Shown: positions 8,004-19,442 of the stretch, in pieces
How positions within the stretch are numbered: position 1 is the stretch's first letter
Layout of the letters: the number at the start of each line of letters is the position of its first letter
Source: Erythrobacter litoralis
GTDB lineage: Bacteria > Pseudomonadota > Alphaproteobacteria > Sphingomonadales > Sphingomonadaceae
Length of the DNA: 64,000 nucleotides
Reading direction: 5' to 3'
Assembly: GCF_001719165.1 (NCBI RefSeq)
Contig: NZ_CP017057.1
Span: 1,364,001-1,428,000, forward strand
Notes under the pieces: generated by a model
The model's input: the letters and a program-made list of their open reading frames with translations, nothing else
Told to the model about the DNA's origin: nothing
Database searches by the model: none
Made by a program: the position numbers and the translations under genes

Positions 8004-9326
8004 TCAGGACATTGCCTGTTCAAGCAGTGTCGCGAAACCGGGAAAGCTCGTCGCGATCGGCGCGACGTCATCGACCGCGACGCCGCTGCGGCTCGAAAGC
8101 CCCGCCACGGCCATGCTCATGGCGATGCGGTGGTCGAGCCGTGTCGCGATCTCGGCGCCCTCGGGCGTGCCGGCAAGCGGCTCGCCGCCGGTGCCCTGGA
8201 TGACGAGCCCGTCCCCGCGCTCATCCACCCGCGCGCCGGCGAGCGTCAGCGCGGCGGCCATGGTCGCAAGACGGTCGCTCTCCTTGACGCGCAATTCCTC
8301 CAGCCCACTGGTGGTCGTGGTTCCCTCAGCCAGCGCGGCGGCGACGAAAAGGATCGGGAATTCGTCGATCATGGCAGGCGCAAGGGCAGGGTCGATCGCC
8401 GCGCCCTTGAGCGCCGCGTGGCGCACGCGCAGGTCCGCGACCGGTTCGCCGCCTACCTCCCGGCGGCTCTCCTCGGCAATGTCCGCGCCCATGCTGCGCA
8501 GCGCCTCGATCAGGCCGGCGCGGGTGGGATTGATGCCGACATTTTCGACCACAAGGTCGCTTCCCGGAACGAGCGTTGCTGCGACGATGAAGAAGGCGGC
8601 GGACGACGGATCGCCCGGCACGGTCACGTCGAGCGGGGTCAGTTCCGCCTCGCCATGCACGCCGACCACCCGCTCTCCGTCCTCCTCGCCGATCTCGAGC
8701 CGCGCGCCAAAGCCTTCCAGCATCCGTTCGGTGTGATCGCGCGTCGGCACAGGCTCGATCACGCGGGTTATGCCGGGCGTATTGAGCCCTGCGAGAAGCA
8801 CGGCGCTTTTCACCTGCGCGCTCGCGACCGGCAGGCGGTAGGCGATCGGCACGGCGGGGAGGGCGCCGCGCACCATCAGCGGCAGCGTGCCGCCGGGCGA
8901 TGCCGTTATGTTCGCGCCCATCTGCGCCAGCGGCGTGATGACCCGCTCCATCGGCCGGCGCGAAAGACTGGCGTCTCCGGCAAAGGTCGCGGTGATGCCA
9001 TGGCTCGCGACGAGGCCCATCAGGAGCCGCGTCGAGGTCCCCGAATTGCCCATGTCTAGCGCCTGCGCGGGTTCCAGCAGGCTGCCGAGCCCCGCGCCCT
9101 CGACGATCCAGGTCCCGCCCTCGCAGCGTTCGACATGTGCGCCGAAAGCCCGCATCGCCGCCGCCGTGGCGAGCACATCCTCGCCTTCGAGCAGGCCCGC
9201 GATCGTGCTGCGCCCGACCGCGAGCCCGGCGAACATCAGCGCGCGGTGGCTGATCGACTTGTCGCCGGGCACGGCGATCCTGCCGGTGAGCGGCGCGATC
9301 GCGGGAAGGAAGGTGTGGGCGGGCAT
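8004..9326 (-). CDS. aroA: 3-phosphoshikimate 1-carboxyvinyltransferase (EPSP synthase)
   Basis: 440 residues. The N-terminal PGDKSISHRALM and the later NSGTSTRLLMGL and ESDRLATMAAAL blocks are hallmarks of AroA; these bind shikimate-3-phosphate and PEP. It makes EPSP in the chorismate pathway in the cytoplasm. The start at ATG 9326 (MPAHTFLPA) fits the family; the frame stays open far upstream but that part has no similarity. It heads the minus-strand series aroA-DUF411-CBU_0592-small membrane-cmk. Confidence 0.96.
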   Translation of the reverse strand: MPAHTFLPAIAPLTGRIAVPGDKSISHRALMFAGLAVGRSTIAGLLEGEDVLATAAAMRAFGAHVERCEGGTWIVEGAGLGSLLEPAQALDMGNSGTSTRLLMGLVASHGITATFAGDASLSRRPMERVITPLAQMGANITASPGGTLPLMVRGALPAVPIAYRLPVASAQVKSAVLLAGLNTPGITRVIEPVPTRDHTERMLEGFGARLEIGEEDGERVVGVHGEAELTPLDVTVPGDPSSAAFFIVAATLVPGSDLVVENVGINPTRAGLIEALRSMGADIAEESRREVGGEPVADLRVRHAALKGAAIDPALAPAMIDEFPILFVAAALAEGTTTTSGLEELRVKESDRLATMAAALTLAGARVDERGDGLVIQGTGGEPLAGTPEGAEIATRLDHRIAMSMAVAGLSSRSGVAVDDVAPIATSFPGFATLLEQAMS

Positions 9327-9536
9327 CGTCTGCGTGGGGCTCCTTGGCGCGCGCGGGGCGGATCTTGGTTGCGGCGGTGCTTTGACAGCGCCTCCCCCTT
9401 CTGGCAAGGCGCGCCGCCACGTGCAGGCCCGTGCTTGATTCAGGCAGGGGGCGCGCCCACTTTCCACGACTGACTTGACGGATACAACGGCACTCGCAAG
9501 GACATCGGGCGAGGCCAATTCGAGGACTATAAGAGC

Positions 9537-9872
9537 ATGGCTAAGCCGGAATGGGGTACCAAGCGTACCTGCCCCAAATGCGGGGAACGCTTCTATGACC
9601 TGGGTAAGGAAGACCCTGTGACCTGCATCGAATGCGGCGAGCAGTGGACGCCGGAGCCGGTTCTGAAGTCGAAGCAGCCGATCCCCTTCGAGGAAACCGA
9701 GAAGAAAGAAAAGGATACCGAATCCGATTCCGATCTGTCCGGCGATGACGATCTCGAGGACATCGACATCGACGACGATGACGATTCGCCCGACAACGAT
9801 GTCGATCTCGGCGGCGACGACGATCTCGGCGTGTCCAAGGGCAAGGGCGACGACGAGGAAGAGGACAGCTGA
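9537..9872 (+). CDS. FYDLN-acid (TIGR02300) family protein
   Basis: 111 residues. The N-terminus MAKPEWGTKRTCPKCGERFYDLGK with two CxxC pairs (CPKC at 13-16, CIEC at 31-34) is a zinc ribbon with the FYDLN signature, and the C-terminal half is almost all Asp/Glu/Ser. This family is widespread in Alphaproteobacteria and has no known role. It is divergent from aroA (210-base gap) and precedes tRNA-Ala. A CGAGGA ribosome site lies 10 bases before the ATG. Confidence 0.92.
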   Translation: MAKPEWGTKRTCPKCGERFYDLGKEDPVTCIECGEQWTPEPVLKSKQPIPFEETEKKEKDTESDSDLSGDDDLEDIDIDDDDDSPDNDVDLGGDDDLGVSKGKGDDEEEDS

Positions 9873-9954
9873 TCGGGCCGCCCATCCGCATCGCGCGGGG
9901 GCGGGATCGGCGGGCGGCGGGCTTGATCGGAGCCGCCGCCTCCCCAAATACCTC

Positions 9955-9981
9955 TTGCAAATGGGAAAGCGCGCTTATAAT
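9955..9981 (+). promoter_or_regulatory. Sigma-70-type promoter of tRNA-Ala
   Basis: A perfect -10 box TATAAT (9976-9981) is preceded by TTGCAA (9955-9960) with a 15-base spacer. Transcription would begin near 9988, about 50 bases before the mature tRNA. The spacer is short, but an exact TATAAT is rare in this GC-rich DNA. Confidence 0.6.
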
Positions 9982-10036
9982 GGCCGCTTCCCGCGGGCGG
10001 GCCCTATTCGGGCATGTTCGCAATCTGACTGGCTCG

Positions 10037-10111
10037 GGGCCTTAGCTCAGCTGGGAGAGCGCAACACTGGCAGTGTTGAGGTCAGCGGTTCGATCCCGCT
10101 AGGCTCCACCA
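10037..10111 (+). tRNA. tRNA-Ala (anticodon GGC)
   Basis: A complete cloverleaf of 75 bases: acceptor GGGGCCT pairs with AGGCTCC (one G-T pair), D arm GCTC...GAGC, anticodon stem CAACA/TGTTG with loop CTGGCAG and anticodon GGC at 10069-10071, T arm with GGTTCGATCC, and an encoded CCA end (10109-10111). It reads GCC (and possibly GCU) alanine codons. It sits between the FYDLN-acid gene and ffh. Confidence 0.96.
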
Positions 10112-10243
10112 GTCAAAGACATTCGTGGTGACAGCCGCATGGGAAATGCGGCAGTGATCCGCACGCTGGCCGACGAGGTTTCGTCCGCCGGCGTTTTCGC
10201 GTTTACCGGGCCTTCTGGATGGTCCGCGAGGAGTGACGAGGCG

Positions 10244-11686
10244 ATGTTCGACAATCTGTCCGACCGGCTTGGCGGCGTCTTCGATCGTCTCAAGGGCCGC
10301 GGCGCGCTCAAGGAGCAGGACGTGCGCGATGCCATGCGCGAAGTGCGCGTGGCCCTGCTCGAAGCCGACGTCGCACTTCCCGTCGCCCGCCGCTTCATCG
10401 ATTCGGTCACCGAAAAGGCCGTTGGCCAGGACGTTCTCAAATCGGTCACGCCGGGCCAGCAGGTCGTCAAGATCGTCCACGACGAACTCGTCGAGATGCT
10501 CGGCGGGGCCGATGTCGAGGGACTGAACCTCGAGGCGAAGCCGCCGGTCGTCATCATGATGGTCGGGCTTCAGGGTTCGGGCAAGACGACCACCACCGCC
10601 AAGCTCGCCAAGCTGATCCGCGAACGCCATGGCAAGAAGGCACTGATGGCCTCGCTCGACGTCAACCGTCCGGCGGCGCAGGAACAGCTTGCGGTGCTGG
10701 GCGAGCAGGTGAGCGTCGCGACGCTGCCGATCGTCGCGGGGCAGCAGCCGGTGGACATCGCCCGGCGCGCGATGGAATCGGCGCGGCTCCAGAATGTCGA
10801 CGTGCTCCTGCTCGACACCGCGGGGCGCCTGCATGTCGATGAAGCGCTGATGGCCGAAATGAAGGCCGTATCCACCGTCTCCGCACCCAATGAAGTGCTC
10901 CTCGTCGTCGACAGCCTCACCGGCCAGGACGCGGTCAATGTTGCGCAGAGTTTCAGCGGAGAGGTCCCGCTCACCGGCGTGGTCCTCACCCGGATGGACG
11001 GCGATGCGCGCGGCGGCGCGGCGCTCTCGATGCGCGCGGTCACGGGTAAGCCGATCAAGTTCGCTGGGACCGGCGAAAAGCTCGACGCGATCGAGACCTT
11101 CCGCCCGCAGGGCGTTGCCGACCGCATCCTCGGCATGGGCGATGTCGTCAGCCTCGTCGAAAAGGCGGCGGCGACGATCAAGGAGGAAGAGGCCGAACAG
11201 CTCCAGCGCAATTTCGAAAAGGGCAAGTTCGATCTCAACGACCTGCGCATGCAACTGCGCCAGATGCAGAACATGGGCGGGCTCGGCATGCTCGCCGGGA
11301 TGCTCCCGGGCATGAAGAAGGCGAAGGCCGCGATGGCCGCCTCGAACATGGACGACAAGGTGCTGGTTCACATGGACGCGATCATCGGTTCGATGACGCC
11401 CAAGGAACGCGCCAATCCCGCGCTGATGAACGCCAAGCGCAAGAAGCGCGTCGCGGCCGGCAGCGGGACGGACGTGCAAACCGTCAACAAGCTGCTCAAG
11501 ATGCACCAGGAAATGGGCCGGGCGATGAAGCAGATCAAGAAGATGGGCGGATTGAAGGGCCTCGCCGCGATGTTCGGCGGCGGCGGAGGACCGGGCGGTC
11601 CCGGCGGTATGCCCGGGCTTGGCGGGCCGGGCGGTATCGGCGGGCAGGGCGGCCTCCCCGGCCTTGGCGGGCCAAAGAAGAAATAG
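10244..11686 (+). CDS. ffh: Signal recognition particle protein Ffh
   Basis: 480 residues: N domain, G domain with GLQGSGKTTTT at 108-118, DTAGR and TRMDGDARGG motifs, and a Met-rich M domain (from about 300) that binds SRP RNA and signal sequences. The C-terminus is an unusual Gly/Pro/Leu-rich tail of some 35 residues ending PKKK. Start ATG 10244 has GAGGAG 10 bases upstream; longer starts lack family similarity. It begins the ffh-rpsP-rimM series. Confidence 0.97.
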   Translation: MFDNLSDRLGGVFDRLKGRGALKEQDVRDAMREVRVALLEADVALPVARRFIDSVTEKAVGQDVLKSVTPGQQVVKIVHDELVEMLGGADVEGLNLEAKPPVVIMMVGLQGSGKTTTTAKLAKLIRERHGKKALMASLDVNRPAAQEQLAVLGEQVSVATLPIVAGQQPVDIARRAMESARLQNVDVLLLDTAGRLHVDEALMAEMKAVSTVSAPNEVLLVVDSLTGQDAVNVAQSFSGEVPLTGVVLTRMDGDARGGAALSMRAVTGKPIKFAGTGEKLDAIETFRPQGVADRILGMGDVVSLVEKAAATIKEEEAEQLQRNFEKGKFDLNDLRMQLRQMQNMGGLGMLAGMLPGMKKAKAAMAASNMDDKVLVHMDAIIGSMTPKERANPALMNAKRKKRVAAGSGTDVQTVNKLLKMHQEMGRAMKQIKKMGGLKGLAAMFGGGGGPGGPGGMPGLGGPGGIGGQGGLPGLGGPKKK

Positions 11687-11732
11687 TTTCAGTTCACGAT
11701 TACAAACACTTCCATTCGAAAGGTAAGATAAA

Positions 11733-12230
11733 ATGGCAATTGCAATGAGGCTCTCGCGCGGCGGCGCCAAGAAGCGTCCCTATTATCGCATCGTCGTCGC
11801 CGACAACCGCGCCCCGCGCGACGGCAAGTATCTCGAGCAGATCGGGACCTACAATCCGCTGCTGGCCAAGGACGATCCCGCCCGCATCAAGCTCGACGAG
11901 GACCGCGCGCGTCACTGGCTTTCGGTCGGCGCGCAGCCGTCGGACCGCGTCGCCCGCTTCCTCGATGCCGCCGGCATCATGGAGCGCAAGGCCCGCAACA
12001 ACCCGCAGAAGGCCGAGCCGGGCGAGAAGGCCAAGGAGCGCGCCGAGGAGAAGGCCGAGAAGGCCCGCGAGGCCGAGGAAGCCGCCAAAGCCGCCGAAGC
12101 CGAAGCGAGCGAGGCCCCGGCCGAAGAGACGCCGGCTGAAGAGGCTCCGGCTGAAGAAGCTACGGCCGAAGAAGCTGCCGCCGAAGAGGCTCCGGCCGAA
12201 GAGGCGGGTGAGGAAAAGGCCGAGGGCTGA
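11733..12230 (+). CDS. rpsP: 30S ribosomal protein S16 with long acidic tail
   Basis: 165 residues, about twice the usual 80-90. Residues 1-85 are a normal S16 ([20 protein letters not shown] at the start, [11 protein letters not shown] near 75). The rest is a charged tail: first Lys/Glu/Ala helix-like, then an AEEAP pentapeptide repeat. Such tails occur in some alphaproteobacterial S16 proteins. A GAAAGG ribosome site lies upstream of ATG 11733. Second gene of the ffh-rpsP-rimM series. Confidence 0.95.
12120..12206 (+). repeat. 15-bp tandem repeat in rpsP (AEEAP pentapeptide)
   Basis: Five full copies and one partial copy of a 15-base unit starting at 12120, 12135, 12150, 12165, 12180 and 12195, each encoding A-E-E-(A/T)-(P/T/A). 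Copies differ mainly at third codon positions, so the array is not very recent. Length changes in steps of 15 bases would keep the frame. Confidence 0.85.
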
Positions 12231-12248
12231 TCCCCTCGATCCGCTCGC

Positions 12249-12271
12249 GCCGGGCCGGATGACGGCCCGGC
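12249..12271 (+). other. Intercistronic hairpin between rpsP and rimM
   Basis: A perfect 8-bp stem (GCCGGGCC with GGCCCGGC) and 7-base loop lie 19 bases after the rpsP stop and 18 bases before the rimM start. No T tract follows, so it is more likely an mRNA stability or partial attenuation element than a full terminator. Confidence 0.5.
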
Positions 12272-12289
12272 GGGGGTGGGGAGCGCGCT

Positions 12290-12790
12290 GTGGCGACAGA
12301 CCGGATAGAACTCGCCGCGATCACCGGCGCGCATGGCGTTGCCGGAGAAGTCCGGCTCAAGCTGCTGGGCGAGGGCATGGAGGCCCTCGCCGCGCATCAC
12401 ACCTTCAACGGGGGGGCGCTGACCCTTGCCAAGCTGCGCTCCGACAATAAGGGCGGCGCGATCGCGCGTTTTGCCGAGATCGCCACTCGCACCGAGGCTG
12501 AGAGGCTGCGCGGCACCGCGCTCACCGTCCCGCGGGCCGCGCTCCCCCCTCTCGGGGAAGGCGAATATTACCATGCGGACCTGATCGGCCTCGCGGTCGA
12601 GACCGATGCGGGCGAGAACGTGGGCGAGGTTATCGCGGTCGCCAACTTCGGCGCCACCGATATCGTCGAGATCCGCCGCGACCCGGCTCCTGACAAGGGG
12701 CCGGCGACCTTCATGGTGCCGATGACGGAGCAGGCGGTGCTGCGCTGGGACGAGACACGGATGGTGATTGCCGCCGCCTTTGCCGAATGA
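12290..12790 (+). CDS. rimM: 16S rRNA processing/30S maturation factor RimM
   Basis: 166 residues with an N-terminal RimM beta-barrel (AAITGAHGVAGEVRLK) and a C-terminal PRC-barrel (EGEYYHADLIGL, then GATDIVEI and FMVPMT). It helps assemble the 30S head and binds S19. Start is GTG at 12290, the only one that gives the conserved N-terminus. Normally trmD follows at once; here 3.2 kb of other genes intervene. Confidence 0.94.
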   Translation: MATDRIELAAITGAHGVAGEVRLKLLGEGMEALAAHHTFNGGALTLAKLRSDNKGGAIARFAEIATRTEAERLRGTALTVPRAALPPLGEGEYYHADLIGLAVETDAGENVGEVIAVANFGATDIVEIRRDPAPDKGPATFMVPMTEQAVLRWDETRMVIAAAFAE

Positions 12791-12829
12791 TTTCGGGAAC
12801 CCGGGGCCGCGCGCATGCGCTGGTGAGGC

Positions 12830-13522
12830 ATGAGACCCAACCCCGCCGCCCTTGCCAGCGCGCTTTTCGCGATCGGCGTGACCGGCTGCGACACCGCCCC
12901 GAGCGAGCAATCCGTCGAACCTTCGCCCAGCCCTGTTGAGGCAGAGATGATCACCGTCGAAGAGCGGATCATGGAAGGGACCGAATGCCCGGTCCTCGTG
13001 ACCCCTGACGGCGCGCGCTATGCCCTTGCGCTGGGCGAAGCCGACTTCGGCCCCGGCGATTATGTTCGCTTCACCGGCCCGCGTGCCCAAGCGAGTGTCT
13101 GCATGGAAGGCGAGGCGACCCTAACGCCCGACTATATAGAAAGCATCGATCCTCCCGCGCGCGACCGCGACCCGGCCCGTGCGGGAGGCATCGCGCTCGA
13201 CGTCGCCTATGTCACCGGGGCCTGGGCCGCCAAGGGGGTCGATGCGACCTGCGACCGGCCCGATTTCGAGATCAGCGAAAGCCCCGGCGCGATCGTGATC
13301 GAGACGCGGGTGAACGGGACGCCCGAGACCGCGCGCGTCGTTCTGGGCGACTATCCGCGCATCGACTGGGACGACCCGCTTCCCGACACCCCGATCGAGG
13401 CGCGCGGCCCCGACGGGCTCGCCGTGCTGCGCCCCGCGACCGACGCGGCCTATGATTCGATGGAGATTGCCGGGCACAGGATCGCGGGCGATGGGGCGGT
13501 CTTCGTGAAATGCGCAGGCTGA
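12830..13522 (+). CDS. Putative lipoprotein of unknown function
   Basis: 230 residues. Signal sequence with a lipobox ending at Cys20 (IGVTGC). The mature protein has a compact segment at about 40-105 (GTECPVLVTPDGARYAL ... GPGDYVRF) that looks like a small beta-barrel, perhaps DUF5818-like, then a second domain with two Cys (CDRPDF and the last CAG). No role can be assigned. It lies 39 bases after rimM and is the first of the genes placed between rimM and trmD. Confidence 0.75.
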   Translation: MRPNPAALASALFAIGVTGCDTAPSEQSVEPSPSPVEAEMITVEERIMEGTECPVLVTPDGARYALALGEADFGPGDYVRFTGPRAQASVCMEGEATLTPDYIESIDPPARDRDPARAGGIALDVAYVTGAWAAKGVDATCDRPDFEISESPGAIVIETRVNGTPETARVVLGDYPRIDWDDPLPDTPIEARGPDGLAVLRPATDAAYDSMEIAGHRIAGDGAVFVKCAG

Positions 13523-13835
13523 TGCGTCAAGAAGGACGCGATTCTCGCAAATTCAAAGATTTAACCTTTGTTACACCGCGTAATCCTGCTTCGCGAGAGA
13601 CCAGTCTCGGCCAAGATGCTTGCGGCGCGTCATAAGGTGATTGCGTCAGACGCAATTATCTTGCGTTTTTCCCGAAAGGCTCCGCTTCGGTTGAGATAAG
13701 TGCGGCACCGTGTTCTAATTCGCGCACTCGACAATTCGGGATCATCGCTTCGCGAGGGCAGCCTCCGCCGGAGCGTGTTCCCACGCGCCTGCAACGCTTT
13801 GTCAGAACGGGGAATGGACTGTGGAGAAGACCACG
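13523..13835 (+). promoter_or_regulatory. Upstream region of the betaine methyltransferase genes
   Basis: 313 bases without a supported gene, and more A/T-rich than its surroundings in 13545-13580 and 13635-13690. It contains a perfect inverted repeat ATTGCGTC-A-GACGCAAT (13640-13656), and an imperfect relative, GCGTC-N6-GACGC, at 13524-13539. I could not fix a convincing -35/-10 pair. The region most likely holds the promoter and control sites of the two methyltransferase genes. Confidence 0.5.
13640..13656. promoter_or_regulatory. Candidate operator: 8-bp perfect inverted repeat
   Basis: ATTGCGTC and GACGCAAT flank a single central A. It is about 180 bases in front of the methyltransferase start and could bind a dimeric regulator. 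The GCGTC/GACGC core recurs at 13524-13539. Function is inference only. Confidence 0.4.
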
Positions 13836-14654
13836 ATGAGCACCTTCGCGCCCGAACGCCAGCAGGATTACGGGGAGGATCCTCATGCAGTGCGCGAATC
13901 CGATGTCTATGTGAACGAATATGTCCGCGGCTTCGTCGAGAAGTGGGACGAGCTGATCGACTGGGAAGCCCGCGCCGAGAGCGAAGGCAAGTTCTTCATC
14001 GACCTTCTGCGCGCGCGCGGCAAGAAATCGGTGCTCGATGTCGCGACGGGCACGGGGTTCCATTCGGTCCAGTTGCTCAAGGCCGGGTTCGACGTGTTTT
14101 CCGCCGACGGTTCGGCCGAGATGCTCGCCATGGCGTTCCAGAACGCGGCCGACCACGATTTCGTGCTCAAGACCGTCCATGCCGACTGGCGCTGGCTGAA
14201 CAAGGACGTGCACGGCAAGTTCGACGCGATCATCTGCCTCGGCAACTCCTTCACCCACCTGCACGACGAGAAGGACCGCCGCCGCACGCTTGCCGAGTTC
14301 TACGCCGCATTGAAGCATGACGGGGTGCTGATCCTCGATCAGCGCAATTACGATGAGATCCTCGACAACGGCTTCAGCTCGAAGCACAAATATTACTATT
14401 GCGGCGACCAGGTCACGGCCGAGCCTGAATATGTGGACGACAGCCTCGCGCGGTTCAAATATTCCTTCCCAGACGGTTCAGACTATCATCTCAACATGTT
14501 CCCGCTGCGCAAGGAATATGTCCGCGGGCTGCTGAGGGATGTCGGCTTCCAGCGCATCCACACCTATGGCGACTTCCAGGATGACCACGAGGATGCGTGT
14601 CCCGACTTCTTCATCCATGTCGCCGAGAAGGAATATCTTGCAGATGACGAGTGA
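13836..14654 (+). CDS. Glycine/sarcosine N-methyltransferase (betaine synthesis)
   Basis: 272 residues. It closely resembles GSMT of halophiles such as Ectothiorhodospira: the block YVNEYVRGFVEKWDELIDW (25-43) with RAESEGKFFIDLL, the SAM motif VLDVATGTGFHS (66-77), and LDQRNYDEILDNGF later. The enzyme methylates glycine to sarcosine and dimethylglycine with SAM. ATG 13836 has a GGAGAA site 7 bases upstream; GTG 13821 is a weaker choice. The next gene, encoding the enzyme for the following steps, overlaps by 11 bases. Assignment is from family resemblance recalled, not a search. Confidence 0.88.
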   Translation: MSTFAPERQQDYGEDPHAVRESDVYVNEYVRGFVEKWDELIDWEARAESEGKFFIDLLRARGKKSVLDVATGTGFHSVQLLKAGFDVFSADGSAEMLAMAFQNAADHDFVLKTVHADWRWLNKDVHGKFDAIICLGNSFTHLHDEKDRRRTLAEFYAALKHDGVLILDQRNYDEILDNGFSSKHKYYYCGDQVTAEPEYVDDSLARFKYSFPDGSDYHLNMFPLRKEYVRGLLRDVGFQRIHTYGDFQDDHEDACPDFFIHVAEKEYLADDE

Positions 14655-15543
14655 CGCGATGACGGGCGAAGCGGGCGTCGCGGTCGCGCGCGACTATTAC
14701 GACAGCAGCGATGCGATCGAGTTCTACTCCACCATCTGGGGCGGCGAGGACATTCATGTCGGCATCTATGACGACACGCGCGACATCCGCGAGGCGAGCG
14801 CGACCACGGTCGATACCATGGCGCGATTGCTTTCCAGTGTGACAGGGGCCAGTGAGAGAGTGGCCAGTGATAGAGGGGCCAGTGAGACAGGGAGCAACCT
14901 GTCGCAGGCCCATGTGCTCGACATCGGTTCGGGCTATGGTGGCGGGGCGCGGCGGCTCGTCTCGAAACACGGCGCAGGTCATGTCACATGCCTCAACATC
15001 GCGGAGGAGGAGAACGCCCGCAACCGCAAGCTCACCGGCGAGGCGGGGCTGCTCGACCGGATCGATGTCGTCGACGGCTCGTTCGACGCGCTGCCTTTCG
15101 ATGACGGGGCTTTCGACGTTGTGTGGAGCCAGGACGCGATCCTGCACGCACCCGACCGCGGCGCGGTTCTGGACGAAGTCGCGCGGGTGCTGAAGCCCGG
15201 GGGGCGCTTCATCTTCACCGACCCGATGCAGGCCGACGGGCTTTCCGACCCCAGCGCACTCCAACCGATCTATGACCGCATCCATCTCCAGAACCTCGCC
15301 AGCTTCGGCTTCTACCGCGAAGGATTGAAGGCGCGCGGGTTTCAGGAGGTCGAAGTGCAGGATCGCTCGCGCCAGTTGCGCAACCACTATGCCCGCGTCG
15401 CCGAGGAACTCGACTCGCGCCGGGGCGAACTTTCGGCGAGCGACGAATTCGTCGACCGGATGATCGCCGGGCTCGGCCATTGGGTGCGCGGAGCGGACGA
15501 GGGCCGGCTGACGTGGGGGATCATGCTCTTCCGTAGGATCTGA
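14644..15543 (+). CDS. Sarcosine/dimethylglycine N-methyltransferase (betaine synthesis)
   Basis: 299 residues. The N-terminus ARDYYDSSDAIEFYSTIWGG (15-34) with EDIHVGIYDD and the SAM motif VLDIGSGYGGGAR (91-103) match SDMT, which converts sarcosine and dimethylglycine to glycine betaine. Residues 64-83 are a four-fold pentapeptide repeat just before the SAM motif, an insertion not expected in the family. ATG 14644 is used (AAGGA upstream, overlap with the GSMT gene); ATG 14659 is the alternative. A hairpin terminator follows. Confidence 0.87.
   Translation: MTSDAMTGEAGVAVARDYYDSSDAIEFYSTIWGGEDIHVGIYDDTRDIREASATTVDTMARLLSSVTGASERVASDRGASETGSNLSQAHVLDIGSGYGGGARRLVSKHGAGHVTCLNIAEEENARNRKLTGEAGLLDRIDVVDGSFDALPFDDGAFDVVWSQDAILHAPDRGAVLDEVARVLKPGGRFIFTDPMQADGLSDPSALQPIYDRIHLQNLASFGFYREGLKARGFQEVEVQDRSRQLRNHYARVAEELDSRRGELSASDEFVDRMIAGLGHWVRGADEGRLTWGIMLFRRI
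14832..14891 (+). repeat. 15-bp tandem repeat (x4) inside the dimethylglycine methyltransferase gene
   Basis: Four head-to-tail 15-base units start at 14832, 14847, 14862 and 14877; the last three all begin GGCCAGTGA. They encode S-S-V-T-G, A-S-E-R-V, A-S-D-R-G and A-S-E-T-G, in frame. The array forms a Ser/Ala-rich loop between the N-terminal part and the SAM-binding motif. Confidence 0.9.
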
Positions 15544-15576
15544 CGGGCTGGCGACACCGTTCGTCCGAGGCTAAGG

Positions 15577-15613
15577 AACGGGCGGGGCAGCGCTTGGGCG
15601 CGCCCCGCCCGTT
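15577..15613 (+). terminator. Terminator-like hairpin after the betaine methyltransferase genes
   Basis: A 12-bp perfect stem (15577-15588 with 15602-15613) and 13-base loop start 34 bases after the second methyltransferase gene. The 3' side reads GTTTCGTGTT, a weak T tract, so termination may be partial and allow read-through into the membrane protein and trmD. Confidence 0.65.
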
Positions 15614-15638
15614 TCGTGTTCCGAGGAGGAAAGCCGCC

Positions 15639-15968
15639 ATGTTCGAAGCGCCCGAATGGCTGTGGTGGGTGATGCTGGTCTCGCCGCTGATCCTGACGCC
15701 GATCGTCGCCAATATCGCGCTTGCCCGCGCCAAGGAGCGGCCCGGGTTCGGCGCGATGATGGGCATCGGCGCTTTGGGTGCGGTTCCGCTCGCTTTGTTC
15801 ATGGCCGCGACCCGAGAGGGCGGGCTGGGGGGCGGGTTCGTCTTTGCGCTTATCGTGCTTGCGGTCTGGGGCAGCACGGTCGGCGCGGCGCTGGCGAGCT
15901 ATGTCGACTGGCTGCGGCGCGAGGATGCCAAGCGGCGGCCGCCGCAGGATCTGACCGAAGCCGAATGA
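15639..15968 (+). CDS. Small membrane protein, unknown function
   Basis: 109 residues with three predicted membrane helices (about 6-25, 40-56, 63-88) and a basic C-terminal tail. ATG 15639 has a very good GAGGAGG site. Its stop overlaps the trmD start (ATGA), so it heads the trmD-rplS unit. Family not recognised; it resembles the short uncharacterised membrane proteins found before trmD in this group, but I cannot name one. Confidence 0.72.
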
Positions 15969-16714
15969 GTTTCGCCGCCACTATCCTGACGCTCTACCCC
16001 GAGATGTTTCCGGGGCCGCTCGGCACGAGCATGGCGGGCCGCGCGCTCGAGCGGGGGGACTGGACCTGCGAGGCGGTGCAGATCCGCGATTTCGCAACCG
16101 ACAGGCACCGCACGGTCGATGATACGCCCGCAGGCGGCGGGGCGGGAATGGTGCTCAAGTGCGACGTGATCGCGCGCGCGGTCGATCATGCCACCGCGCT
16201 GCAACCCCAAGCCCCGATCCTCGCCATGACCCCGCGTGGCAGACCGATCACGCAGGCGCGCATTCGGGAACTCGTCGAAGGGCCGGGCGTCACGATCCTG
16301 TGCGGCCGGTTCGAAGGCTTCGACGAGCGCCTGTTCGAGGCCCGCCCGCAAATCGAGGAAGTGAGCCTTGCCGACATCGTGCTTTCGGGCGGAGAACCCG
16401 CCGCGCTCGCCATACTCGACGCTTGCATTCGGCTGCTTCCCGGCGTAATGGGCGCGGCTTCTAGCGGCGAGGAGGAATCCTTCGAGGACGGCCTCATCGA
16501 ATATCCGCATTACACCCGACCTGCGACATGGGAAGGGCGCACGATCCCCGAAGTGCTGCGATCGGGGGATCATGCGAAAATCGCCGCCTGGCGCAAGTCC
16601 ATGGCGCGCGAGACGACACGGTTACGCAGGCCCGATCTATGGGAGCGTCATGGGGACGCTCCGGACCGGTCTGCCTCTGGCGCGCAGCGTGAAAAGAAGG
16701 AATGGGACCAGTGA
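15965..16714 (+). CDS. trmD: tRNA (guanine-N1)-methyltransferase
   Basis: 249 residues of the SPOUT family. It has [11 protein letters not shown] at the start, [13 protein letters not shown], the knot segment [13 protein letters not shown] and the [20 protein letters not shown] block. It methylates G37 of tRNAs that read CCN, CUN and CGG codons, using SAM. It overlaps the upstream membrane gene by 4 bases and rplS by 4 bases. The C-terminus is extended by some 20 polar residues. Confidence 0.95.
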
Positions 16715-17079
16715 ACCTGATCCAGCAAATCGAAGCCGAGGAAATCGGCAAGGTCGAACGAGAAATTCCCAGCTTCCGGGCCGGCGACACCGTGCGTGTC
16801 GGCGTCAAGGTCAAGGAAGGCAACCGCGAGCGTGTGCAGAACTTCGAAGGCGTGGTGATCGCGCGTTCGAACCGCGGCATGGGCTCGAACTTCACGGTGC
16901 GCAAGATCAGCTTCGGCGAGGGCGTCGAGCGCGTCTTCCCGCTCTACTCGCCGATCATCGACGACATCACCGTGGTCCGCCGCGGCGTCGTGCGCCGGGC
17001 CAAGCTGTATTATCTGCGCGGCCGCACCGGCAAGCGCGCGCGCATCGCCGAACGCCGCGAGAACGCGCCCAAGGCGTAA
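16711..17079 (+). CDS. rplS: 50S ribosomal protein L19
   Basis: 122 residues with the L19 core [32 protein letters not shown] and the C-terminal [20 protein letters not shown] chose the GTG at 16711 because AAGAAGG at 16694-16700 is ideally spaced for it; an in-frame ATG at 16702 is only 1 base past that site. The GTG overlaps the trmD stop (GTGA). A strong terminator follows. Confidence 0.95.
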
Positions 17080-17101
17080 GCCTCGCGCTCCAAGCGAATT
17101 C

Positions 17102-17135
17102 AAAAAGGGCGGCTCCGCGAGGGGCCGCCCTTTTT
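17102..17135 (+). terminator. Rho-independent terminator of trmD-rplS
   Basis: A 12-bp stem (AAAAAGGGCGGC with GCCGCCCTTTTT) and a 10-base loop, 22 bases past the rplS stop. The arms end in A5/T5, so it could act in both directions. Confidence 0.9.
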
Positions 17136-17216
17136 CGTGCGCGAGCCTTTGCAATTCGCGCGCGCTTTCGTCATGTCGGCTGCCAGCAATGACGAAACGA
17201 AGGGGCCGTCCTTGAA

Positions 17217-19442
17217 ATGCGCTTGTCGATACTTGCAGCCGCAGGTGCTGCGATCCTTTCTTCCCAGCCCGCTCTTGCCGACGACACCATGATGGCAGAG
17301 CCCGAACTCACCTTCGAGCGGGTCTTCGCCTCGCCCTCCCTGAATGGCCCCACGCCGCGCCAGGCGAAGCTGTCGCCTGACGGCAAGTACCTCACGCTGC
17401 TCAGGAATCGCGAGGACGACCTCGAACGGTACGACCTGTGGGGCTACGACACCGCGACGCGCGAATGGCGCATGCTGGTCGACAGCGAGGCGATCGGCAC
17501 GGGCCGCGAACTGTCCGAGGACGAGAAGATGCAGCGCGAACGCGCGCGGGTCGGGAACCTCAAGGGCATCATCTCCTATCAATGGGCAAGCGACGGGTCG
17601 GGCGTGCTCGTGCCGCTGGACGGCGACCTCTATTTCGCCAATCTCGACGGCAGCGTGACGCGGCTGACCGACACCGAGGGCAGCGAACTCAATCCCAAGC
17701 TTTCGAGCAAGGGCGGGTACGTCTCCTTCGTGCGCGACCGCCAGCTGTGGGTCGGCCCGTTCGGAGAGGAAGCGCGCCCGATCACGCCAAGGGAAGCGGA
17801 CACGATCCGCTGGGGCGAAGCGGAATTCGTCGCGCAGGAGGAAATGGGCCGCCTCACCGGTTACTGGTGGTCGCCCAACGACCTCAGGATTGCCGTCCAG
17901 CGCACCGACGAAAGCCCGGTCGGCATCGTCACCCGCGCCGCGATCGGGGCGACGGGTACGAAAGTGTTCGATCAGCGATATCCGGTGGCGGGCTCGGACA
18001 ATGCGATCGTCCAGCTTTACGTGATGGACCCCGACGGCGGCAACCGGGTCAAGGTCGATCTGGGAGAGGAAACCGACATCTATCTCGCCCGCGTCGATTG
18101 GGGACCGGACGATTATCTGTATGTGCAGCGCCAGGACCGCGCGCAGACAAGGCTCGACATGCTGCGCGTCGATCCCGAGACGGGCGCAAGCGAGATCTGG
18201 TTCACGGAGAAATCCGCCCGGCCCGATTACTGGATCAACCTGTCGGACAATTACCGCTTTCTGAAAGACGGCAGCCTGCTGTGGTGGTCGGAGCGGTCGG
18301 GCTTTGGCCAGTTCTATCGCTTCGATGGCAGCGAATGGACCCAGCTGACCCAAGGCAATGCGCCCGCGACCAGCCTCGACGGTGTCAACGAGGAGGAGAA
18401 CGCGCTGTTCTACACCCGGGTCGACGACGTGCTGACGACGCAGGTCTACCGCGCCGCACTCGATATGGCGGTGGAGCCCCAGCGTCTGACCGATCCCGAC
18501 TACACCAACAGCGCCAGCATGGACGCAAAGGGCCGCGCATTGCTCGTGACGAGGTCGAAACCCGACCAGCCGCCGCAGAGCTATCTCGCAGGGCGCGAAG
18601 GGCAGCGGATCACCTGGATAGAAGAAAACGCGCTCGACGCCGATCACCCCTACACGCCGTTTCTATTGAGCCATGTCATGCCCGAATACGGCACGATTCC
18701 GGCCGAGGACGGGACGGAACTTCACTACATGATGCTCAGGCCCGAGATGGAGCCGGGGAAGCGATATCCCGTGTTCTACTACCACTATTCCGGCCCGGGC
18801 CCGCAGCTGGTGAACAAGGGCTGGACCGGCGCGCTCGCGCAGGCGGTGGTCGATCGCGGCTATATCTGGTTCGCGCTCGACAATCGCGGGTCGGCCAATC
18901 GGGGCGTCGATTTCGAGCAGCCCATCTACCGTGCGATGGGCGGCGTCGAAGTGCGTGACCAGAAGGCCGGGGCCGAATGGCTGAAAAGTCGGTCCTTCGT
19001 AAATCCCGACAAGATAGCGATCTATGGCTGGTCCTATGGCGGCTACATGACGATCAAGCAGCTCCAGGCCGATCCGGGCCTCTACGCCGCGGGCATTTCG
19101 GGCGCGCCGGTGACCAAGTGGGAGCTTTACGACACCCATTACACCGAGCGCTACATGGGCGATCCGAACGAGGTTCCCGAAGCCTATGCAACGGCGAGCG
19201 CGATCGCGAATGCGGGGACGATCAGCGACCCGCTGCTCATCGTCCACGGAATGGCGGACGACAACGTCGTATTCGAGAATTCCTCGGAGATCATCGCCGC
19301 GCTGCAGGAAGGCAACGTCCCGTTCGAAATGATGCTCTATCCCGGCTACACGCACCGCGTATCGGGCGAGAACATCTCGCCCCATCTGTGGAACACGATC
19401 TTCCGCTTCCTCGAAAGCCACGATGTGACGCCGCCGGAATGA
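17217..19442 (+). CDS. Exported S9 family peptidase (dipeptidyl-peptidase IV type)
   Basis: 741 residues. A signal peptide (cleavage near AlaAsp at 21-22), an N-terminal beta-propeller rich in WSPNDLRIAVQR-type blades, and a C-terminal alpha/beta hydrolase domain. The catalytic triad can be seen: Ser606 in GWSYGGYM, an Asp in DDNV (681/682) and His713 in YTHRV. DPP IV-type enzymes release dipeptides after proline or alanine; substrate is not known here. It stands alone after the rplS terminator. Confidence 0.92.
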   Translation: MRLSILAAAGAAILSSQPALADDTMMAEPELTFERVFASPSLNGPTPRQAKLSPDGKYLTLLRNREDDLERYDLWGYDTATREWRMLVDSEAIGTGRELSEDEKMQRERARVGNLKGIISYQWASDGSGVLVPLDGDLYFANLDGSVTRLTDTEGSELNPKLSSKGGYVSFVRDRQLWVGPFGEEARPITPREADTIRWGEAEFVAQEEMGRLTGYWWSPNDLRIAVQRTDESPVGIVTRAAIGATGTKVFDQRYPVAGSDNAIVQLYVMDPDGGNRVKVDLGEETDIYLARVDWGPDDYLYVQRQDRAQTRLDMLRVDPETGASEIWFTEKSARPDYWINLSDNYRFLKDGSLLWWSERSGFGQFYRFDGSEWTQLTQGNAPATSLDGVNEEENALFYTRVDDVLTTQVYRAALDMAVEPQRLTDPDYTNSASMDAKGRALLVTRSKPDQPPQSYLAGREGQRITWIEENALDADHPYTPFLLSHVMPEYGTIPAEDGTELHYMMLRPEMEPGKRYPVFYYHYSGPGPQLVNKGWTGALAQAVVDRGYIWFALDNRGSANRGVDFEQPIYRAMGGVEVRDQKAGAEWLKSRSFVNPDKIAIYGWSYGGYMTIKQLQADPGLYAAGISGAPVTKWELYDTHYTERYMGDPNEVPEAYATASAIANAGTISDPLLIVHGMADDNVVFENSSEIIAALQEGNVPFEMMLYPGYTHRVSGENISPHLWNTIFRFLESHDVTPPE

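Follow-up and report, generated by a model that had tools for sequence, protein, structure and literature searches.

Why should genes for the synthesis of an osmolyte lie inside the rpsP-rimM-trmD-rplS operon? In the 64,000-nucleotide stretch of Erythrobacter litoralis DNA analysed here (the window; contig NZ_CP017057.1, positions 1,364,001 to 1,428,000, from a complete chromosome of 3.25 Mb), the last base of rimM is 12790 and the ATG of trmD is at 15965, leaving 3,174 bases (12791-15964) between them, with every open reading frame (ORF) on the plus strand. The first-pass annotation of this DNA had placed there 3.2 kb carrying a lipoprotein, a GSMT-like and an SDMT-like methyltransferase and a membrane protein overlapping trmD; its coordinates were exact, and all four genes were found again as ORFs. 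It had further proposed that the pair serves glycine betaine synthesis and that its position next to trmD, whose product also uses S-adenosylmethionine (SAM), could tie osmoprotection to growth. Our results make it likely that the two genes are a betaine-making pair, transcribed as a self-contained unit and housed in a variable slot that they reached by one old insertion, after which many lineages lost or replaced them.

The product of the first gene scored 476.3 bits against the GSMT family NF051855 (curated cut-off 350) and 420 and 415 bits against the GSMT sequences of PDB entries 5h02 and 5gwx, compared with about 85-88 bits for mammalian GNMT. The residues of the active site and of the betaine pocket are named for the crystallised enzyme of Methanohalophilus portucalensis, MpGSMT, in the structural account of PMC5146677. 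All eight active-site residues (Y26, R43, N134, H138, R167, Y185, Y206 and M218) and all six of the betaine feedback pocket (D35, I38, D39, W40, N100 and H104) were identical in the window protein; according to that account, conservation of three of the latter, D35, W40 and N100, sets GSMT apart from mammalian GNMT.

The second gene overlaps the first by 11 bases, and its product was closest by sequence, among solved structures, to the SDMT of Galdieria sulphuraria (PDB 2o57, 225 bits). Substrate residues are given in the relevant part of PMC3176816 as Asp158 and His162 of the Galdieria enzyme and Pro171 and Met172 of the Aphanothece enzyme; with equivalence taken from the sequence alignment to 2o57, all four are kept in the window protein (D164, H168, P194 and M195), and they are invariant in 28 sequences. 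The predicted structure had a mean pLDDT of 89.5, with low confidence only at an insert, and in a fold search the four chains of 2o57 ranked 1 to 4 (TM 0.89-0.91 by target length, 44% identity), the next family following at E 1e-19. Thus, the GSMT-like and SDMT-like identities put forward by the first-pass annotation were borne out by family, PDB and residue searches, and methyltransferases from another family were ruled out as the best matches by the same family and PDB sequence comparisons.

With one GSMT-like and one SDMT-like enzyme, synthesis of betaine from glycine is the best reading of the pair and a well supported one, which the proteins probably carry out. GSMT would convert glycine to sarcosine and then to dimethylglycine in a SAM-dependent manner, and SDMT would methylate dimethylglycine (and sarcosine) to betaine, so that three SAM-dependent methylations overall would yield the compatible solute; the pair may well be induced by salt. 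Two features of the second protein tell against this reading. Although its best family was NF041675, the score of 308.7 bits lies below the curated cut-off of 550, and it is therefore not filed in that equivalog; in addition, a region just before the SAM-binding strand is 46 residues long in the window and 26-29 in 82 other SDMTs, owing to a 20-residue insert made of repeats that is unique among the 83 SDMTs. The SDMT activity is less sure because of this sub-threshold score and of an insert that has no counterpart in the 82 other proteins. The enzyme could even be impaired in this strain, with the pair yielding sarcosine or dimethylglycine or being in decay, and the position, uniqueness and low model confidence of the insert would agree with that. 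Such impairment is unlikely, as the frame is intact, every invariant position of the 28-sequence alignment is kept (by definition), and outside the insert the model is confident and agrees with 2o57, which makes the insert look like a tolerated loop. The 15-bp repeat motif of the insert occurs once elsewhere in the genome, with one mismatch.

Other osmolyte genes were also searched for. The window genome (G000 in our survey, whose other genomes are numbered likewise) gave no match to ectoine synthase, and its BetA-like proteins stayed under the curated cut-off (485 of 732 bits); both results favour the reading of the pair as a source of betaine. The genome has one BCCT transporter, located away from the pair. 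Ectoine synthase was found in none of 13 carriers of the pair versus two of nine non-carriers searched, G008 (C2:567193-567570) and G066 (C14:119614-119991), which belong to the genera of the carriers G102 and G136. A BCCT gene adjoins the pair in three (G195, G270 and G300; loci L157, L159 and L161) of the six searched carriers that have the pair away from rimM and trmD.

rimM and trmD had been expected to be adjacent, and in this family that does not hold. In 149 family genomes the gap between them could be measured on the same strand in 133, the other 16 being dropped for genes on different contigs or strands, rearrangement or a missing match. The median gap was 996 bp: 30 genomes had less than 200 bp, 37 had 200-1000 bp, 40 had 1-2 kb, 21 had 2-3.5 kb and five had more, with 26 at 2 kb or above. 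The content of 35 intervals was compared, nine with the pair and 26 without, the latter chosen by hand mostly for a large gap and not at random; ORFs were picked by an ad hoc rule on GC content at third codon positions (GC3) instead of gene annotation, each cargo label comes from one representative, and interval ends and ORF picks are approximate. For G115, where trmD lies upstream, the stretch after rimM was taken. A FAD-dependent oxidoreductase was present in 11 intervals, a TIGR04222-type protein in 10 and its 183-residue partner in 10, a nitrilase-like CN hydrolase in 10, GSMT-SDMT in nine, a DUF5818 protein in nine and a PIN protein in six, in differing combinations. The gap is therefore a variable slot for accessory genes in this family, which would explain why the pair sits between rimM and trmD.

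The slot varies even within the genus. GSMT was absent from the 10 other genomes of the genus, eight of which have the CN hydrolase beside trmD, one the DUF5818 protein with the oxidoreductase and one no clear cargo match, from an examination that in eight of the 10 covered about 1.5 kb before trmD. No integrase or transposase was found by Pfam among the cargo representatives, bounding repeats not having been searched across the slot, and the sole tRNA of the window is at 10036-10111. A plasmid origin of the pair was considered and set aside, since 72,556 plasmid records gave one partial, distant match. That match, NZ_CP121116.1:18103-19467 on a Roseinatronobacter plasmid, has 71% identity to part of the window GSMT-SDMT region.

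GSMT is far from universal: of 397 family genomes, 15, spread over nine of 96 genera, had a match above the cut-off, and so did one of 11 genomes of the genus. It follows rimM in eight of these carriers (G000, G102, G115, G136, G175, G249, G337 and G358), among them G115, in which the pair stands behind rimM and trmD has moved upstream. In the other seven no rpsP, rimM, trmD or rplS was present within the 5.5-19 kb fetched. Among named database entries, 291 stretches encode GSMT, and the best 80 were taken as loci, 22 of them shorter than 15 kb: SDMT stands beside GSMT in 79, the exception stopping at a contig end, and rimM is nearby in four. In the metagenome-assembled genome SAT22 (L065) the pair is also behind rimM. 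Eight named loci, including two from Citromicrobium and one from Altericroceibacterium endophyticum, are identical in both proteins to surveyed family genomes. The view that betaine synthesis from glycine is mostly known from halophiles is weakened by these numbers, as the best 80 of the 291 stretches are largely alphaproteobacterial by title and the pair is reported from marine phototrophs in the part of PMC7824335 concerned with it.

In the window, the pair is bracketed by two terminator-like hairpins. The upstream one had a z-score of -4.0, with one of 200 shuffles as good, and the downstream one a z-score of -6.1, with none of 200 as good; a general scan gave 10 terminator-like sites in 5.7 kb versus 3.7 expected. 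A promoter-like site follows the upstream hairpin. Of the 11 upstream regions compared within the clade, eight contain TGTTCTAAT with at most one mismatch, at -105 to -133; this set leaves out G249, a near copy of G358 whose site has two mismatches. When all 9-mers were tested, none of 60 shuffle sets reached eight regions and 29 reached seven; TGTTCTAAT was found in none of five upstream regions of other carriers. The first hairpin would end transcription of rpsP, rimM and the lipoprotein gene, a promoter proper to the pair would restart it, and the second hairpin would close the unit before the membrane-protein gene and trmD.

Several results speak against so neat a unit. A downstream hairpin was found in just six of 12 clade members, a count made with no shuffle control; the motif, initially noticed by eye, is lacking in three of the 11 regions (G102, G115 and G358) and does not exceed shuffles in an 8-mer version of the test; and no site was found by a stock promoter scan, whose -10 element must have A in second place. 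The proposal that the pair, by standing beside the SAM-using trmD, shares the growth-linked expression of the translation operon draws on the shared strand of all the genes and on the overlap between the membrane-protein ORF and trmD. Moreover, in G115, G175, G249, G337 and G358 GSMT starts soon after rimM with no gene between, so that read-through is possible there. Nevertheless, in the window the pair is set off by the two strong hairpins and the promoter-like site, it is away from rimM and trmD in seven of 15 carriers over the stretch fetched, rimM is close in so few of the best named loci, and in relatives the slot is filled by unrelated genes. The suggested tie to trmD is thus not supported and was rejected as the best reading, and we regard it as very improbable. 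An Rfam search of positions 9000-18000, up to E 1, gave one tRNA and two weak sub-threshold hits, with no match to a riboswitch for SAM or S-adenosylhomocysteine.

The pair has a GC3 of 0.80-0.82, like its flanks, and its insertion is therefore not recent. Its history was followed in a tree of 83 rows, obtained from 95 loci with GSMT after removing four with a short or absent SDMT and the eight identical to surveyed genomes. A single branch unites the nine slot copies, within a 12-row clade (support 98) that also holds two Stakelama rows and G280. In an rpoB tree the eight slot carriers are scattered in a 21-row clade. For these eight, the pair tree was accepted by the rpoB data (P value of the approximately unbiased test, p-AU, 0.37) and by the ffh+rpsP+rimM data (0.21). 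The slot copies thus fit one old insertion behind rimM, followed by many losses or replacements. Against a single insertion stand the support of only 53 for the branch uniting the slot copies, the rejection of the best rpoB tree by the pair data of the eight copies (p 7e-5), the mutual rejection of the pair and rpoB trees once four off-site carriers are added (6.5e-11 and 1.3e-13), and SAT22, a slot carrier that the ffh tree places apart from the main clade, so that the insertion must be older still or have been transferred. A tree made to group G270 and G300 with the slot copies was also rejected (6e-6); from these tests, the off-site pairs have moved between lineages.

Repeated exchange of the slot copies themselves, by recombination in the conserved flanks (ffh-rpsP-rimM and trmD-rplS) that swaps the whole segment in the middle, is the rival reading, in which the slot works as an exchange site and not as the seat of an old insertion with losses. 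Carriers are so scattered among non-carriers in the rpoB tree that seven changes are needed, the same as with shuffled labels; among the genomes fetched, five genera (g1, g7, g9, g33 and g66) contain both; cargo combinations differ; pair and rpoB trees conflict once off-site carriers are included; and the pairs of G280 and Stakelama, which lie outside the clade or off-site, are no more distant than the slot copies (GSMT 80-85%). In contrast, neither the rpoB nor the flank data reject the pair tree of the eight slot copies, and their identities correlate with those of rpoB (Spearman 0.77, from 28 non-independent pairs). An imported trmD flank in the window genome found no significant support either, as a tree with the own genus forming one clade was not rejected (p-AU 0.128). 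Repeated exchange is therefore considered doubtful, and one old insertion with later losses or replacements is kept as the preferred history. We entertain, tentatively, a broader view in which the gap of an Erythrobacteraceae-type clade is a standing exchange slot within an essential translation operon for complete, self-insulated metabolic modules (betaine synthesis, nitrilase, FAD oxidoreductase, TIGR04222 membrane pair and PIN toxin-like gene), acting through conserved flanks without an integrase or a tRNA target, so that close strains might trade salt protection for other traits at a single site.

The features of the region are collected in Table 1.

Table 1. Features in and around the rimM-trmD gap, numbered from the first base of the window.
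Feature	Position	Strand	Basis or remark
rpsP (ribosomal protein S16), upstream flank; presumed	11733..12230	+	ORF; tblastn to same-order relatives
rimM, GTG start	12290..12790	+	TIGR02273, 113.5 bits (cut-off 66.2)
Lipoprotein-like ORF, DUF5818 domain	12830..13522	+	PF19135, 50.5 bits; relatives in 9 of 35 examined intervals
Terminator-like hairpin then TTTTT, upstream of GSMT	13625..13666	+	Scan site 13633-13663; -17.8 kcal/mol
Promoter-like site TTGAGA-N17-TCTAAT	13691..13719	+	Read by eye; 110 bp before GSMT GTG, about 125 before ATG
GSMT	13836..14654 (alternative GTG start 13821)	+	NF051855; PDB 5h02/5gwx; ligand residues
SDMT-like sarcosine/dimethylglycine N-methyltransferase	14644..15543	+	NF041675; PDB 2o57; substrate residues; model
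SDMT 20-residue in-frame insert	14845..14907	+	About three copies of a 15-bp repeat (repeat 14847-14890)
Terminator-like hairpin immediately behind SDMT, GC-rich, short T-rich tail	15575..15615	+	-38.6 kcal/mol
Small membrane-protein-like ORF, 109 residues	15639..15968	+	Stop overlaps trmD start (ATGA, 4 bases)
trmD	15965..16714	+	NF000648, 280 bits (cut-off 220); TIGR00088, 242 bits (cut-off 195)
rplS (ribosomal protein L19), downstream flank; presumed	16702..17079	+	ORF; position conserved in relatives

The two outer ORFs are those that we take, from operon order, to be rpsP and rplS. The former encodes 165 residues with a long Ala/Glu-rich tail, while most relatives align over about 97-103 residues and G102 over 152. 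The membrane-protein-like ORF had no Pfam or NCBIfam match and no relative among 42 sources compared. The trmD match falls into two parts at about model residue 77-80, as though an in-frame insert interrupted it, in 16 relatives (G023, G108, G033, G092, G004, G089, G002, G098, G054, G121, G100, G026, G006, G116, G103 and G104); within the genus the split is present in G121 and apparently in G223, and the window trmD is without it. One in-frame stop interrupts the trmD match in G292 (TGA, in L226) and in G101 (TAA, C12:218136-218804), which could be the end of the gene itself or a sequencing fault.

The GSMT-SDMT pair of this group is already in print, and it is the slot, not the chemistry, that is the newer part. 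In its treatment of these genes, Imhoff (2020; PMC7824335) places the pair, as GMT-DMT, in marine phototrophs that include E. litoralis DSM 8509, and the cluster also in Novosphingobium malaysiense and Altererythrobacter atlanticus; these belong to the same order and have the same two-gene cluster, which that treatment describes as just two genes, without a chromosomal position. Among the literature matches listed, no publication title concerned a placement of the pair in the rimM-trmD gap. Two expectations are corrected here: the adjacency of rimM and trmD, and the idea that a gene beside that of a SAM-using enzyme must be regulated together with it. The window offers a clear case of what is probably a whole osmolyte pathway that keeps one place in a core operon without being obligatory there; congeners have no such pathway, and two non-carriers hold ectoine synthase instead. 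Loss of the trait versus its exchange is thereby testable in culturable strains.

Compared with the two-gene systems of Halorhodospira halochloris and M. portucalensis, the window pair has in common the adjacent genes and the catalytic, substrate and betaine-feedback residues, and differs in its location in the rimM-trmD gap, in the unique insert of its SDMT and in being known here from sequence. The SDMT of G. sulphuraria (2o57) has the same Asp, His and Pro-Met substrate residues and is without the repeat-made insert. Finally, the order of genes around the insertion is that of the rpsP-rimM-trmD-rplS operon, with the difference that in this family the interval between rimM and trmD is a variable slot.

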